A stretch of DNA of 55,623 nt, taken from Lachnospiraceae bacterium. GTDB taxonomy: Bacteria; Bacillota; Clostridia; Lachnospirales; Lachnospiraceae. The notes under the pieces were generated by a model that saw only the letters and a list, made by a program, of their open reading frames with translations, was not told the DNA's origin and searched no databases. Where the stretch lies: NCBI GenBank assembly GCA_015057055.1, contig SVFE01000010.1, forward strand, positions 1 to 55,623, read 5' to 3'. A program made the position numbers and the translations under genes. This document shows positions 51,165-55,623 of this stretch, in pieces (within the stretch, counting starts at the first letter, position 1; every line of letters begins with the position of its first letter).

Positions 51165-52844
51165 ATGTTAAATTATAAGCGTTATCAAAAGAATCCGGTG
51201 GAACACTTCCCGGAGCGTACCTGGCCGAACAAGGAAATTACAAAGGCACCGGTTTGGTGTAGTGTGGATTTGCGTGACGGTAATCAGGCGCTGATTGACC
51301 CCATGGTGGTTACGGAAAAGATTGAAATGTTCCAGTATCTGGTGAAGCTTGGATTTAAGGAAATTGAAGTCGGTTTTCCGGCAGCCAGCCAGATTGAATT
51401 TGACTTTTTGCGTCAGCTCATTGAAAGGAAATTAATTCCCGATGATGTAAAGGTGCAGGTATTAACCCAGTGCAGAGAAGAGTTGATTGACCGTACCTTT
51501 GAATCCATTCAGGGATGCAAACAGGCGATTGTACATATTTACAATTCCACATCAACGCTGCAAAGAGACGTTGTGTTCGGAATGGATAAACAGCAGATCA
51601 TTGATATTGCCATCAAGGGAACGGAGATGGTTAAGGAACGTGCAGCAAAATTTGACGGAAATATTATCTTGGAATATTCCCCAGAGAGCTTTACAGGAAC
51701 GGAACTGGATTTCTCCCTGGAGATTTGTACGGCAGTGCAGAAAGCATGGGGCCCCACAAAGGAAAATCCCATGATTATCAATCTTCCTTCCACCGTAGAG
51801 ATGACGACCCCCAATGTTTTTGCGGATCGTATCGAATGGATGGATAAGAATTTTGAAAACCGTGAAAGCATTATTCTTAGCGTTCATCCCCACAATGACC
51901 GGGGAACCGGCGTGGCAGCAGCAGAGCTGGCACTTCTTGCCGGTGCAGACCGAATCGAAGGAACCTTGTTTGGCAACGGAGAAAGAACCGGTAACGTAGA
52001 TATCGTCAATATTGCTTACAACATGTTCTCTCAGGGAATTGACCCGGAACTGGAATTGGACAATGTAAATGAAATTATCGAACTCTATGAGAGATGTTGC
52101 AAGATTCCCATTCACCCGAGACATCCTTATGCAGGTAAGTTGGTATTCACAGCATTTTCCGGCTCGCACCAGGACGCAATCAACAAGGGCGTGCAGGCAA
52201 TGCATGACCGTAACAGAGAGCATTGGCAGGTGCCGTATCTTCCCATTGATCCTGCAGATATCGGAAGAGAGTATGAGCCGATTGTACGAATCAATTCCCA
52301 GTCCGGAAAGGGCGGCATTGCTTTCGTTATGAATACCTATTACGGATTCAAATTACCCAAGGGAATGCACAGAGAATTCGCAGATGTTATTCAGGCACTT
52401 TCCGAGAAGCAGGGTGAGGTTTCACCGGAAACCATCATGGAAAAATTCCGAGAGGAATATCTGCTTAAGAAAGAGCCCATTCACTTCCGCAAGTTGAAAG
52501 TGGATGATATGTCCGGCGAGACGGAATCCGAATTTGATACAAGAGTAACAGTATCCTATACCGACCGCGAAAAAGAGAGAAGTTTTGTGGCAGTTGGTAA
52601 CGGTCCTTTGGATGCGGTGCAACGCGGTTTGATGGAGACATTCAACATCAACATCAAGATTTTGGATTACGAACAGCACGCATTGCAGAGCGGTTCCAAT
52701 TCACAGGCGGCGGCATACATCCATATGTTAGATTCGGATAGCGGAAATGTAACCTACGGTGTTGGTGTAAGCTCCAACATCACCAGAGCTTCCGTCCGAG
52801 CTATTTTCTCCGCACTCAATCGTTTGGGCCTGGGTGAAAAATAA
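51165..52844 (+). CDS. leuA: 2-Isopropylmalate synthase LeuA
   Basis: A 559-residue enzyme of leucine synthesis that joins acetyl-CoA and 2-oxoisovalerate. The start NYKRYQKNPVEHFPERTWPN, and the catalytic motif VWCSVDLRDGNQALIDPM belong to the longer LeuA type (about 560 residues) also found in Actinobacteria and fungi. HPHNDRGTGVAAAELALLAG and LFGNGERTGNVD complete the barrel, and a C-terminal LeuA dimer domain (about 440-559) supplies feedback inhibition by leucine. GGAGGAG lies before ATG. No leuB, leuC or leuD follows, so the pathway genes are elsewhere. Confidence 0.95.
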   Translation: MLNYKRYQKNPVEHFPERTWPNKEITKAPVWCSVDLRDGNQALIDPMVVTEKIEMFQYLVKLGFKEIEVGFPAASQIEFDFLRQLIERKLIPDDVKVQVLTQCREELIDRTFESIQGCKQAIVHIYNSTSTLQRDVVFGMDKQQIIDIAIKGTEMVKERAAKFDGNIILEYSPESFTGTELDFSLEICTAVQKAWGPTKENPMIINLPSTVEMTTPNVFADRIEWMDKNFENRESIILSVHPHNDRGTGVAAAELALLAGADRIEGTLFGNGERTGNVDIVNIAYNMFSQGIDPELELDNVNEIIELYERCCKIPIHPRHPYAGKLVFTAFSGSHQDAINKGVQAMHDRNREHWQVPYLPIDPADIGREYEPIVRINSQSGKGGIAFVMNTYYGFKLPKGMHREFADVIQALSEKQGEVSPETIMEKFREEYLLKKEPIHFRKLKVDDMSGETESEFDTRVTVSYTDREKERSFVAVGNGPLDAVQRGLMETFNINIKILDYEQHALQSGSNSQAAAYIHMLDSDSGNVTYGVGVSSNITRASVRAIFSALNRLGLGEK

Positions 52845-52990: not shown

Positions 52991-53782
52991 ATGGATCATT
53001 TTGTTGATGAACGGGATTACAAATTATTAGAGGGTGACAAATATACTTTTTTCGTGCTGCGTCGCATTATTGACGGACCCTGTAAATTGTTGCTTTCGGA
53101 TCATGAACGTTTGATTATTTGCTTTTCGGAGGAACCCTATCCGACTTGGATATGGACACCGGATGATGTGACAGAAGAGGAAATGGAGAATGCATATTTG
53201 CTCTTAAAGGAAAACAATTTGATTACTGAAGAACATACTTTTAATATGAAATACGAACTTTTGGATTATTTTATTAACAGAGCTTTAAAAGACGGAATTT
53301 CTTTGGCGCTTAAACTCAATATGTATGCGTACGACTGCTTCAAGCCGCTGCAGCCGAAAAAAACGGCGGAAGGCGAAATCTGTAAATGCGAAAGGGAGCA
53401 TACGGAAGAACTTGCCGATTTTATTGAAGAGTTTCATGAAGAAACGGGTGTTGACCGAATGGACCGCGCGGGATGCCTGGAGCATGCAAAGGTGAAAATA
53501 GAGGAAGGAAAAACATTTTTTTGGAAGGATGGGCAGGGAAATCATGTGGCGTCCTGCTCGTACAATTTACAGGGGGAACTGGCTAGTGTAAATTTGGTAT
53601 ATACGAAGCCGGAGCATCGGAGAAAACATTATGCAGAGCATCTTGTTTATCAGGTATCTAAGCTGGTAACGGATGCGGGCTACATTCCGATGCTTTACAC
53701 AAATGCGGATTATAAGGCATCGAATGCCTGCTATGAGAAGATTGGTTACGTCCTTCGCGGAAAATTGTGTTCCGTAGGATGA
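52991..53782 (+). CDS. GNAT family N-acetyltransferase
   Basis: A 263-residue protein with an acidic N-terminal domain of about 125 residues and a C-terminal GNAT domain. The acetyl-CoA binding string is VNLVYTKPEHRRKHYAEHLV and YTNADYKASNACYEKIGYVL is the last GNAT motif. The substrate is unknown. A GGAGGAG ribosome site lies before ATG. It is followed 14 bp later by a second GNAT gene of different sequence, so two acetyl transfers may be linked. Confidence 0.88.
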   Translation: MDHFVDERDYKLLEGDKYTFFVLRRIIDGPCKLLLSDHERLIICFSEEPYPTWIWTPDDVTEEEMENAYLLLKENNLITEEHTFNMKYELLDYFINRALKDGISLALKLNMYAYDCFKPLQPKKTAEGEICKCEREHTEELADFIEEFHEETGVDRMDRAGCLEHAKVKIEEGKTFFWKDGQGNHVASCSYNLQGELASVNLVYTKPEHRRKHYAEHLVYQVSKLVTDAGYIPMLYTNADYKASNACYEKIGYVLRGKLCSVG

Positions 53783-53796
53783 TTTTGGAGAAAAAT

Positions 53797-54288
53797 ATGA
53801 ACATAATAGTACAAAAATATGAAAAAAATGATTTAAATGAAATGATAGAAATTTGGAATGAAATTGTGGAAGAAGGAAATGCGTTTCCGCAGGAGGAATT
53901 ATTAAATCTTGAAAGCGGGGCCGAATTTTTTGCATCGCAAACATATACCGGCGTTGCAAAGGACGGTGAAACAGGGAAAATTTACGGTCTTTACATTTTG
54001 CATCCAAATAATATCGGCCGGTGCGGTCATATTTGCAACGCCAGCTATGCTGTTTTGAAGGAGAGCCGGGGACTGCATATCGGAGAAAAATTAGTTTTGG
54101 ATTGTATGGAGCAAGGGCGAGCGCATGGTTTTTCCCTATTGCAATTTAATGCAGTGGTTGCAACCAATGTGCATGCCAGACATTTGTACGAACGTCTGGG
54201 CTTTACGCAATTAGGTACAATACCAAAGGGCTTTCGGATGAAAAACGGAACTTATGAGGATATTTGCCCGTATTATCATGCGTTATGA
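53797..54288 (+). CDS. GNAT family N-acetyltransferase
   Basis: A 163-residue single-domain acetyltransferase of the phosphinothricin/SpeG-like shape. Typical parts are ICNASYAVLKESRGLHIGEK (acetyl-CoA loop) and NVHARHLYERLGFTQLGTIP. The start at 53797 has TTGGAG 6 bp upstream; an in-frame GTG ten codons earlier lies inside the first GNAT gene. Substrate unknown. Confidence 0.88.
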   Translation: MNIIVQKYEKNDLNEMIEIWNEIVEEGNAFPQEELLNLESGAEFFASQTYTGVAKDGETGKIYGLYILHPNNIGRCGHICNASYAVLKESRGLHIGEKLVLDCMEQGRAHGFSLLQFNAVVATNVHARHLYERLGFTQLGTIPKGFRMKNGTYEDICPYYHAL

Positions 54289-54420: not shown

Positions 54421-55035
54421 ATGAATCAGGAAAAAATAGGAAAGTTCATAGCAGTTTGCAGAAAGGAAAGCGGATTAACCCAGGCAGCTTTGGCTGAGAA
54501 GCTTGGTATTACGGATCGCGCCGTATCTAAGTGGGAAACCGGAAAAAGTCTGCCGGACGCATCCATTATGCTGGAACTGTGCGGACTGTTAAATATTAGT
54601 GTAAACGAGCTCCTGACCGGGGAACATATTATTATGGACAATTATAAAGACATTGCAGAACAGAATCTGGTAGAAATGCATAAGCAGGAGGAAGAAGCCA
54701 ATCGGAAGCTGTTGGCGGCAGAAGCCTTTTTGGTTACGTTGACCGTGGTGGCTTCCTTATCCATGATTTTGGCAGGGATTTTGATTGGTGAATTGCATAC
54801 GGTTATGGCGGTGGTGCTGTGCTCGCTTGGTTCACTTATTACACTATTGGGCATCTTTTATGGTCTCAAATTGGAGCACGATGCCGGATATTACGAATGT
54901 CCGGAATGCAAGGAGCGATATGTCCCTTCCATGAAGGCGGTTGTGATGGCGCCCCACTATGGTACGACCCGAAAAATGAAATGCCCGCACTGTGGGAAAA
55001 AAGGATACCATAAAAAGGTACTGACCAAATCATAA
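54421..55035 (+). CDS. Membrane-anchored XRE-family regulator with zinc ribbon
   Basis: A 204-residue protein. Residues 6-62 are a Cro/CI helix-turn-helix (QAALAEKLGITDRAVSKWET). Two membrane segments follow (about 100-122 and 128-149), and the C terminus has a zinc ribbon with CPECKERY and CPHCGKKG. This places the DNA-binding part and the zinc ribbon on the same, cytosolic, side. AAAGGAGGG stands before ATG. Such HTH-membrane proteins often control neighbouring genes; the target is unknown. Confidence 0.85.
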   Translation: MNQEKIGKFIAVCRKESGLTQAALAEKLGITDRAVSKWETGKSLPDASIMLELCGLLNISVNELLTGEHIIMDNYKDIAEQNLVEMHKQEEEANRKLLAAEAFLVTLTVVASLSMILAGILIGELHTVMAVVLCSLGSLITLLGIFYGLKLEHDAGYYECPECKERYVPSMKAVVMAPHYGTTRKMKCPHCGKKGYHKKVLTKS

Positions 55036-55068
55036 GGAAAAGCGGTTATTGATTTTGTAAAAATAGTC

Positions 55069-55097
55069 TTGACCGGGACGGCCGTGAAGGCTATAAT
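55069..55097 (+). promoter_or_regulatory. Strong promoter of the leader-controlled gene
   Basis: TTGACC at 55069-55074 and TATAAT at 55092-55097 with an optimal 17-bp spacer, one of the best vegetative promoters in the window. The predicted start is about 20 bp before a TAGGAGGA ribosome site. Confidence 0.85.
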
Positions 55098-55124
55098 AAA
55101 GAAAAAGTTTTAGGAGGATTTTGC

Positions 55125-55163
55125 ATGTTAAGTGTTATTGTAATGGAGAAAGTGGCTAAATAA
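55125..55163 (+). CDS. Predicted 12-residue leader peptide
   Basis: ATG at 55125 opens a frame of 12 codons, MLSVIVMEKVAK, ending TAA at 55161-55163. AGGAGG lies 8 bp before the ATG and the strong promoter about 30 bp further up, so the frame should be well translated. It stands alone before a structured region with a terminator. Short peptides placed this way serve as ribosome-stalling sensors in attenuators such as those of bmrCD, vmlR or tet(M). That role is an inference. Confidence 0.6.
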   Translation: MLSVIVMEKVAK

Positions 55164-55318
55164 ATATTGCCGGGTGATTTTCGGTAGCATACCGGGAGTC
55201 TGCCTTTTGTTGACGTGAGAAATGTCGACATTTTCGCCTTACAATTGCTTAATATTGTGGTATATATTTTGGGAATGATATTAGCATGGCTGTACGGTCA
55301 TGCTATTATTATGTTTAG
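55164..55318 (+). promoter_or_regulatory. Structured leader RNA between peptide and terminator
   Basis: Three hairpins are visible: CGGTA-GCA-TACCG (55182-55194), TGTTGACGT / ATGTCGACA with loop GAGAA (55208-55230), followed by TTTT, and TAGCATGGC / GTCATGCTA-type pairing (55282-55305). No long reading frame crosses this stretch. It could hold the alternative structures needed for attenuation, but I cannot assign an antiterminator with confidence. Confidence 0.5.
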
Positions 55319-55362
55319 GACCATGGTATCTTAATGCACTTAAGGTATGTATGGTCTTTTTT
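55319..55362 (+). terminator. Strong terminator inside the leader (attenuator)
   Basis: The outer arms GACCAT / ATGGTC and inner arms TATCTTAA / TTAAGGTA pair around the loop TGCAC, with a small internal mismatch, and are followed by TTTTTT (55357-55362). It lies between a strong promoter and the next gene, where a full terminator makes sense only if it can be bypassed. Confidence 0.8.
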
Positions 55363-55438
55363 GTTTGATAAGGCGAAAGAATTAGCCACGAAAATTCCGG
55401 TTTCGGCAACAAAACCTACAAAGAAAGAGAAAAGGTAG
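55334..55438 (+). CDS. Predicted 34-residue ORF starting in the terminator loop
   Basis: ATG at 55334-55336, at the tip of the terminator hairpin, opens a 34-codon frame ending TAG at 55436-55438. It begins MHLRYVWSFLF and ends KPTKKEKR, with an aromatic start and a very basic end that read like a real peptide. There is no ribosome site in the usual place. It would be transcribed fully only when the terminator is bypassed. It may be a second leader peptide or the remnant of an older gene. Confidence 0.45.
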   Translation: MHLRYVWSFLFDKAKELATKIPVSATKPTKKEKR

Positions 55439-55489
55439 TAATTAAGAATAAATAAAAAAATCGAAACATTAGTAAATGAGGAAAAGGAA

Positions 55490-55623
55490 ATGAATATAGA
55501 AAAACAAATTGAATTTGACAAAGTAAAAACCATTTGGAAGGAATTGGCAATCACTGACCGGGCAAAGGAAAGTATAGAAAACGCGGGACTCTGTTATTCG
55601 GAAAAGGATTTGCAAAAGCAATT
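55490..55623 (+). CDS. Start of a MutS-like protein (partial, cut by window end)
   Basis: An open frame from ATG 55490, with GAGGA 7 bp upstream, runs to the window end without a stop (44 codons). It begins NIEKQIEFDKVKTIW and continues with KELAITDRAKESIENAG; the pattern LEFDKV...LA.T..AKE is that of the N terminus of MutS2-type and related MutS-family ATPases. Only this part is visible, so the ATPase domain cannot be checked. Its expression is probably governed by the leader and terminator before it. The family call is tentative. Confidence 0.5.
   Translation, partial: MNIEKQIEFDKVKTIWKELAITDRAKESIENAGLCYSEKDLQKQ

Follow-up and report, generated by a model that had tools for sequence, protein, structure and literature searches.

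A complete intrinsic terminator separates a strong promoter from the start of a MutS-like gene in a Lachnospiraceae genome, raising the questions of whether this gene is controlled by attenuation, what its leader would sense and what its product does. The window, that is, the whole stretch of DNA analyzed here (55,623 nt), makes up one whole contig (C53) of a draft assembly of 2.23 Mb, and the locus lies near its right end on the + strand. The first-pass annotation had proposed a leader-peptide and terminator attenuator in front of a MutS-family ATPase, consisting of a promoter, an AGGAGG motif, a 12-codon ORF, several hairpins, a terminator with six T residues and the next gene. All of these elements were found where it had placed them (Table 1). 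Since a simple scan for promoters and terminators barely exceeded chance (six promoter-like sites vs 4.1 expected and three terminator-like sites vs 1.5 expected, the terminator T2 (55317-55358) not being among them), the case presented here rests on conservation. By folding, the T2 stem had an energy of -16.9 kcal/mol (z -4.1) and continued into the T tract. The leader RNA as a whole (55102-55370) folded with -87.4 kcal/mol, compared with -59.8 +/- 4.6 kcal/mol for 200 shuffled sequences (z -6.0), none of which was as good.

Table 1. Elements of the leader and the gene behind it, in window coordinates
Feature	Position	Strand	Basis
Promoter TTGACC-17 nt-TATAAT	55069..55097	+	11/12 consensus letters
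Shine-Dalgarno sequence AGGAGG of the leader ORF	55112..55117	+	sequence; kept in relatives
Leader ORF, 12 codons, MLSVIVMEKVAK, stop TAA	55125..55163	+	sequence and aligned relatives
5' arm of helix P1, within the leader ORF	outer 55125-55131, inner 55137-55151	+	pairing model on alignment A2
Small hairpin around the leader stop codon	55154..55171	+	helix 3 of the pairing model
Hairpin P2	55172..55205	+	fold; both-side changes in 8/13 pairs (A2)
Hairpin P3	55208..55230	+	fold; both-side changes in 9/9 pairs (A2)
Switch segment B (TTTTCGCCTTACAATTGCTTAATATTGTGGTAT), P1 3' arm, alternatively complementary to the T2 5' arm	55231..55263	+	
Hairpin T1	55275..55312	+	fold, terminator scan; T run interrupted in the window
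Intrinsic terminator T2, six T	55317..55362 (stem 55317-55358; T 55357-55362)	+	folding
34-codon ORF starting in the T2 loop, judged no gene	55334..55438	+	not conserved
Short MutS2 paralogue, first 44 codons, cut by the contig end	55490..55623	+	95% identical to P0001 residues 1-44

Since the window's contig stops inside the gene (at 55623), leaving just 44 codons, the complete gene was taken from a second contig of the same assembly, C104 (4,223 nt). The terminal 426 nt of C104 are 96% identical to the window end (window 55199-55623 vs L003, the C104 locus); this contig carries the second half of the leader, the spacer and the gene start, and then the complete gene, P0001 (652 aa). The two versions may represent a second copy or strain variation of one locus. 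Between them, the leader differs by one substitution in 184 nt and the spacer by 10 in 106 plus three indel columns (Fisher p = 0.0002), with five substitutions in 134 positions at the gene start (leader vs gene, p = 0.09). Immediately upstream of the attenuator, the window carries two GNAT acetyltransferase genes and a gene for an HTH-domain protein (52991-54288 and 54421-55035); on C104, another GNAT gene and a TetR-type regulator follow the gene.

P0001 matched TIGR01069, the MutS2 model, with 550 bits against a cut-off of 400 (residues 2-501; model positions 3-509 of 790), and its best solved chain was B. subtilis MutS2 bound to a collided disome (7qv3, residues 6-552, E 2e-97). As in MutS2, it has a MutS core and an ATPase, whereas MutS domains I and II are missing at the N-terminus. 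The target that had been called MutS-like is thus indeed a MutS-family ATPase, but a MutS2 paralogue and not the mismatch-repair MutS, whose MutS1 models scored far under their cut-offs; KamC was likewise ruled out (211 bits vs a cut-off of 300). In Pfam, P0001 matched MutS_V alone, and neither Smr nor MSSS was found in P0001 or in the L040 protein at E 0.001, whereas Pfam detected MutS_V, MSSS and Smr in the 789-aa full-length MutS2 (L006) that the genome also encodes. Of the 69 relatives from the protein search, 65 were complete ORFs of 621-679 aa, and the C-terminus was strongly conserved in an alignment of 32 members. The AlphaFold2 model of the L040 protein (mean pLDDT 75.8, pTM 0.62) contained five strands in a barrel-like arrangement at residues 550-592, although Pfam gave no MSSS match for the KOW/SH3 domain (uS10-binding in MutS2). 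These strands were followed by a short helix (611-621), at the point from which full-length MutS2 extends to Smr. The top 13 Foldseek matches of this model were all MutS2 structures, and its C-terminal 88 residues aligned with the end of full-length MutS2 only at E = 0.72 in BLASTP. In a tree of 44 proteins, a single branch with support of 100/100 split 35 short from nine full-length members. A short-type match, defined as one extending to position 618 or beyond of 633, was present in at least 24 of 299 Bacillota genomes drawn, the own genome included. By these sequence comparisons, the gene is an ATPase-keeping MutS2 paralogue of ~650 aa that lacks the collision-sensing Smr domain and is separate from full-length MutS2.

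An origin of the gene in phages or plasmids was unsupported: tblastn matches in 62 plasmid and 33 phage records were all below 60% identity, and query coverage reached at least 80% in only four plasmid and four phage records. Two unverified and unannotated records filed as Enterococcus/Listeria phages (L166, OR846605.1; L167, OR846885.1) contain a short MutS2 with a possible uORF, and may be bacterial contigs.

The leader itself is conserved. An nhmmer search from the window leader detected it upstream of 51 of 91 short-MutS2 loci, the C104 copy being among the 51 and the window extra, and did not find this particular leader in the other 40. Most leaders encode a peptide of the form M-L-[SNI]-V-[IV]-V-M-E-K-x-A-K, so that the 12-residue peptide named in the first-pass annotation was recovered upstream of MutS-like genes. 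The ORF had 12 codons in 28 of 30 aligned leaders and 10 codons in two; its codon 4, unpaired in our structure model, specified Val in 27 of the 28 12-codon leaders, via three different codons. In 27 of the 30 leaders, the window included, a promoter match of at least 9/12 precedes the leader start by 26-38 nt.

In the structure model, the leader ORF pairs with segment B ~100 nt downstream to form a long-range helix, P1, which encloses P2 and P3 and is present in the window fold. Alignment A2 was made without reference to structure and comprises 30 of the 52 leader sequences (the better-scoring ones with no long insertions). In A2, 87.9% of cells were paired, compared with at most 47.2% for slid versions of the model, and 19 of 47 pairs had changed on both sides, compared with 11.9 in shuffles. 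Covariation was strong in P2 and P3 (Table 1), which keep their pairing while their sequence varies. The small hairpin was paired in 94.7% of A2 cells, and the window itself has a compensated U-A to G-C change there. The inner helix of P1 was paired in 97.4% of cells and its 13 pairs had no both-side changes; since it is almost invariant, A2 provides no covariation proof of this helix. The wider alignment A3 (61 sequences, fitted to the structure model) contained both-side changes in 41 of 47 pairs, including the P1 inner helix. The leader RNA had no Rfam 15 match at gathering score and four chance-level matches below it, so that a known Rfam element was rejected; for crcB in particular, the window gave no match at gathering score, and a search of 55060-55490 that admitted matches up to E = 10 gave none either. 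Together, these comparisons indicate that the 12-codon ORF, the hairpins and the terminator are parts of one conserved leader RNA, and that promoter, ORF, P1-P3, terminators and target family are conserved.

Terminators are a regular part of this arrangement. Of 52 leader-bearing sequences, 51 had one or more terminator-like sites in the interval from leader to gene, compared with 32 of 156 shuffles, a count in which some terminators, the window's first one included, consist of hairpin P2 and a T-rich sequence; the upstream regions of L043 and L047 appeared coding-like by eye. Two or more sites were found in 26 of 52 sequences and eight of 156 shuffles. A T2 of the window's sequence type was present in 30 of 92 upstream regions (a count that excludes L010 and L011, with zero energy), the others having different terminators or none. 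In many relatives a T run also follows T1, which is broken in the window.

Segment B is in addition complementary to the T2 5' arm in the majority of relatives that could be tested, and to a weaker degree in the window, suggesting how the leader could switch. Among 21 loci (L050 left out), the duplex of B with the T2 5' arm was better than with letter-shuffled arms (p < 0.05) in 16 and failed this comparison in five; in the window, it had -9.7 kcal/mol vs -5.2 kcal/mol for shuffled arms (p = 0.03). We then folded sequences from 21 loci that stop before the T2 3' arm with the leader ORF blocked. Mean B:T2 pairing rose from 2.9 to 6.8 pairs, with a rise of more than two pairs in 12 of the 21 loci and no clear rise in nine; pairing in L012, L051, L089 and L091 was already high in the unblocked state. 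In the window, blocking instead lowered the pairing of B with the T2 5' arm from 2.9 to 0.6 expected pairs in equilibrium folding, and with the full T2 included, T2 formed in all three folded states. Since pairing rises in 12 of 21 loci yet falls in the window, an antiterminator is likely for the family and putative for the window copy; because the blocked-ORF folds of the window give no B:T2 pairing and T2 always forms, antitermination in the window would have to be kinetic or to proceed via other pairings.

The second, 34-codon ORF had been suggested to couple ribosome movement mechanically to terminator folding. It does start in the terminator loop, but it is not conserved and has no evident Shine-Dalgarno sequence, and the proposed link to the terminator was not supported. 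As a conserved second sensor it was rejected, since 13 of the 30 T2-type terminators have no start codon near the loop. In the other 17 (the window and C104 are among the 30), loop ORFs range from two to 55 codons and share no sequence. The C104 copy keeps the frame for only 27 codons, and its ORF ends at 31.

To see which genes the leader accompanies, we used covariance models R1 and R2, which were built from the leader alone with no gene information, on genomes. R1 gave matches in 11 of 392 genomes of the order (own genome included) and in 13 of 14 genomes of the chosen loci, and was additionally run on 76 source sequences. With R2, 39 of 397 family genomes (own included) yielded a total of 41 leaders, and three of 398 phylum genomes had matches, again counting the own genome; both other phylum matches stood before a short MutS2. 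Of the 41 leaders from the family scan, 31 had a short MutS2 as the next recognized gene (within ~600 nt), six an ABC ATPase together with a permease of the ABC-2 type, one a methyltransferase with a short MutS2 behind it and one a small GNAT-like ORF, and two met a contig end. The 11 matches of the order scan preceded MutS2 in six (own included), a methyltransferase and then MutS2 in one, an exporter in three and a contig end in one. In these RNA-model scans, therefore, the leader stands almost only before short MutS2 genes or ABC-2 exporters.

The leader was found before ABC exporter genes at L111, L115, L117, L125, L147, L157, L160, L162, L203 and L208. By Pfam, the exporter operon of L132 encodes one ATPase and two PF06182 permeases. 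In one genome (G717), one leader precedes an exporter and another a MutS2, and in L135, a longer version of the L125 locus, the exporter operon continues directly into a short MutS2. The bmrCD transporter of B. subtilis differs in type from these ABC-2 exporters. At L116, a methyltransferase-domain ORF (2145-2861, Pfam) lies between the leader (1501-1646) and the short MutS2, and the DNA before the short MutS2 in L014, L016 and L019 resembles L116 by eye. The weakest leader match (L213 in G574, 184-248) precedes a 146-codon ORF that is GNAT-like by eye and is possibly a third cargo type.

Among the 40 short-mutS2 loci that lack this leader, a terminator-like site was present within 365 nt in 31, some of these representing background (32/156 shuffled leaders), and absent in nine, and the 16 loci that were read often contained a different very short ORF. 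Leaders of the type MLIV[SF].HGA occurred in Lacrimispora and Clostridium sp. HBUAS56010, MLSVV-type leaders in L067 and L017, and uORFs such as MLGVVLN, MSVIVLL, VSVVGI and similar in Bacilli and other Clostridia. An SD-preceded ORF of the form M[LS]x?[VI], with GTG and TTG starts admitted, was found at 74 of 97 loci, compared with 46 of 291 shuffles and one of nine full-length mutS2 genes; in this listing, a chance ORF was picked by duplex score in some loci (for example L046, L049, L054, L055 and L099), whose leader ORFs are among those of the peptide comparison above. The uORF formed a duplex with downstream RNA at p <= 0.05 in 36 of the 74. In a separate phylum draw covering 22 of 23 short genes outside the own genome, scored with a slightly looser uORF motif and no shuffles, a terminator-like site lay upstream of 21 of 22 short genes and a uORF upstream of 19 of 22, compared with one of seven and none of seven, respectively, for full-length mutS2; one of the three uORF-less short genes has just 68 nt upstream.

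By eye, the uORF segment GTTCTTAAC of four leaders ending in VLN-stop (L168, L170, L185 and L188) is complementary to GTTAAGAAC, ~95-125 nt downstream. Lacrimispora-type MLIV[SF].HGA leaders were seen at L088, L090, L092-L098, L103, L105 and L107; at L088, L098 and L103, CATGGAGC occurs in the uORF and GCTCCATG recurs near the gene start. The Lacrimispora-type leader appears to be another RNA built on the same logic.

These features suggest the following model. Transcription would start just downstream of 55097, and a ribosome would initiate on the 12-codon leader ORF. During normal growth, the leader would be translated fast, and the RNA of the leader ORF and segment B would form P1; with P1 formed, T2 (and T1 too in many relatives) would fold, and transcription would end near 55362. 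In the presence of a translation inhibitor, a ribosome would stall at early leader codons, the nascent M-L-S-V-I-V being the likely sensor. Pausing at codons 4-6 would, with the usual ribosome footprint, place the ribosome over ~55119-55157 and hence over the whole P1 5' arm. Segment B would then be released and could pair with the terminator 5' arm, allowing readthrough into the gene. The product, a Smr-less MutS2-type ATPase, would be an inducible factor that splits or rescues ribosomes, comparable to HflXr. Three steps of this scheme are inferred: that stalling is the trigger, that an antiterminator forms in the window and that the protein acts on ribosomes.

The model draws on several known systems. 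B. subtilis MutS2 is also called RqcU. According to one report (PMC10897456), it splits stalled ribosomes with its ATPase, its loss causes sensitivity to chloramphenicol, tetracycline and erythromycin, and deletion of Smr dramatically lowered its ribosome binding. The short protein resembles it in having a MutS-type core and ATPase, no N-terminal MutS domains and a predicted C-terminal barrel, and differs from it in lacking Smr, in its length (~650 vs ~790 aa), in its own conserved C-terminal tail and in the attenuator before its gene. Since deletion of Smr cut ribosome binding by B. subtilis MutS2, the Smr-less protein may not do the job of MutS2: either it finds stalled ribosomes in a collision-free manner via its barrel and tail, or it has another function.

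The closest parallel in regulation is hflXr (lmo0762) of Listeria monocytogenes, whose leader rli80 is described as having a 14-codon ORF, a terminator, an antiterminator and an anti-antiterminator (PMC6310831). There, a leader-ORF transcription attenuator controls a second copy of a ribosome-splitting factor, an arrangement like the one proposed here, whereas the target is the GTPase HflX and the leader peptide has an RLR motif that MLSVIVMEKVAK lacks (PMC6310831). The ARE-ABCF genes vmlR, cplR and msrD likewise have a very short uORF and an intrinsic terminator, and in their attenuators a drug-stalled ribosome induces an ATPase that acts on the ribosome; their leaders read MIN, MR[I/M] and MYLIFM and their targets are ABC-F proteins, unlike the MutS family member found here (PMC10201436, PMC10314930). 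The very short hydrophobic MsrDL leader (MYLIFM), which senses macrolides, loosely resembles the present one (PMC10201436, PMC10314930). In B. subtilis bmrCD, ribosome-mediated attenuation controls an ABC transporter, which is comparable to the ABC-2 branch of this family, while the leader differs (PMC4191407).

The first question, whether the locus carries a conserved leader-ORF attenuator, can be answered with high confidence from the comparisons above: it very probably does, and the first-pass reading of a leader-peptide and terminator attenuator before a MutS-family ATPase is borne out by the conservation of peptide, hairpins, promoter and terminator in relatives. Because the target is related to the ribosome splitter MutS2, the second cargo consists of ABC-2 exporters and the layout resembles the hflXr and ABC-F attenuators, the leader is likely a translation-inhibitor sensor, and by analogy with those systems we consider stalling by such inhibitors a quite likely trigger. 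That the product rescues or splits ribosomes is somewhat less secure, and we regard it as more likely than not. Taken as a whole, control of an inducible MutS2-type ribosome-rescue or resistance factor by a ribosome-stalling attenuator, as in hflXr, is the probable reading of the locus.

The attenuator could be real while its product acts on DNA, for example as an anti-recombination or branched-DNA factor, with the leader reporting translation stress for some other purpose. MutS2 was originally described as a DNA enzyme, and the protein belongs to the MutS family and passes an NCBIfam model named endonuclease MutS2. Against this, the nuclease-type domain Smr was not found by Pfam, the nearest functionally characterized relative acts on ribosomes that have collided, and exporters are a second cargo of the same leader, and we consider a DNA-acting product unlikely. 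Clearly less probable is an amino-acid attenuator, in which the leader ribosome would stall for want of charged Leu, Ile or Val tRNA by the textbook mechanism. The leader does open with M, Leu, Ser, Val, Ile, Val and is rich in L, V and I, and a 2-isopropylmalate synthase gene lies at 51165-52844; yet none of these amino acids forms a run in the leader, other members read MSESVIN, MSASVQI and MLIVSNHGA, and no amino-acid biosynthesis gene was among the classified targets.

The size and conservation of this multi-hairpin leader would also suit a ligand-binding riboswitch or a protein-binding leader, in which P2 and P3 sense and the ORF is incidental, and one study describes the crcB (fluoride) motif upstream of mutS genes (PMC2864571). 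The sequences of P2 and P3 vary while their pairing stays, the ORF with its start and stop is maintained through in-frame length changes, and Rfam gave no gathering-score match and only the four chance-level ones below it, all of which make such a leader improbable, slightly more so than the amino-acid attenuator. Least likely of all is the absence of regulation, with a leaky terminator behind a strong promoter that simply lowers constant expression. That the full window leader formed T2 in each of the three states folded agrees with this, but the peptide, P1-P3 and the switch segment are conserved far more than a terminator requires. The reading that we prefer thus remains the ribosome-stalling attenuator of a MutS2-type factor.

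The attenuation mechanism is already known, and given the earlier description of crcB motifs in front of mutS genes (PMC2864571), the control of mutS-like genes by RNA is not new as such; the leader RNA described here is absent from Rfam 15, and no description of a Smr-less MutS2 family, or of uORF control of any MutS2, was found among the open PubMed Central papers listed by the searches. Attenuators of this kind mark resistance genes against ribosome-targeting drugs, and the annotation endonuclease MutS2, an NCBI model name, would hide a predicted resistance or tolerance factor. More members could be sought through the leader RNA, through the uORF family and through the ABC-2 exporters that share the leader. 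With roughly even odds, we propose that a MutS2 branch across Bacillota has lost its Smr sensor and gained uORF attenuation, becoming a collision-independent ribosome-splitting resistance factor that forms a small regulon with ABC-2 exporters. This raises the question of whether a MutS2 ATPase can split ribosomes without its collision sensor, replaced by a sensor in the leader. If so, the sensing of stalled ribosomes would have shifted from the protein to the mRNA leader, and these proteins would represent an undescribed class of inducible resistance factor.
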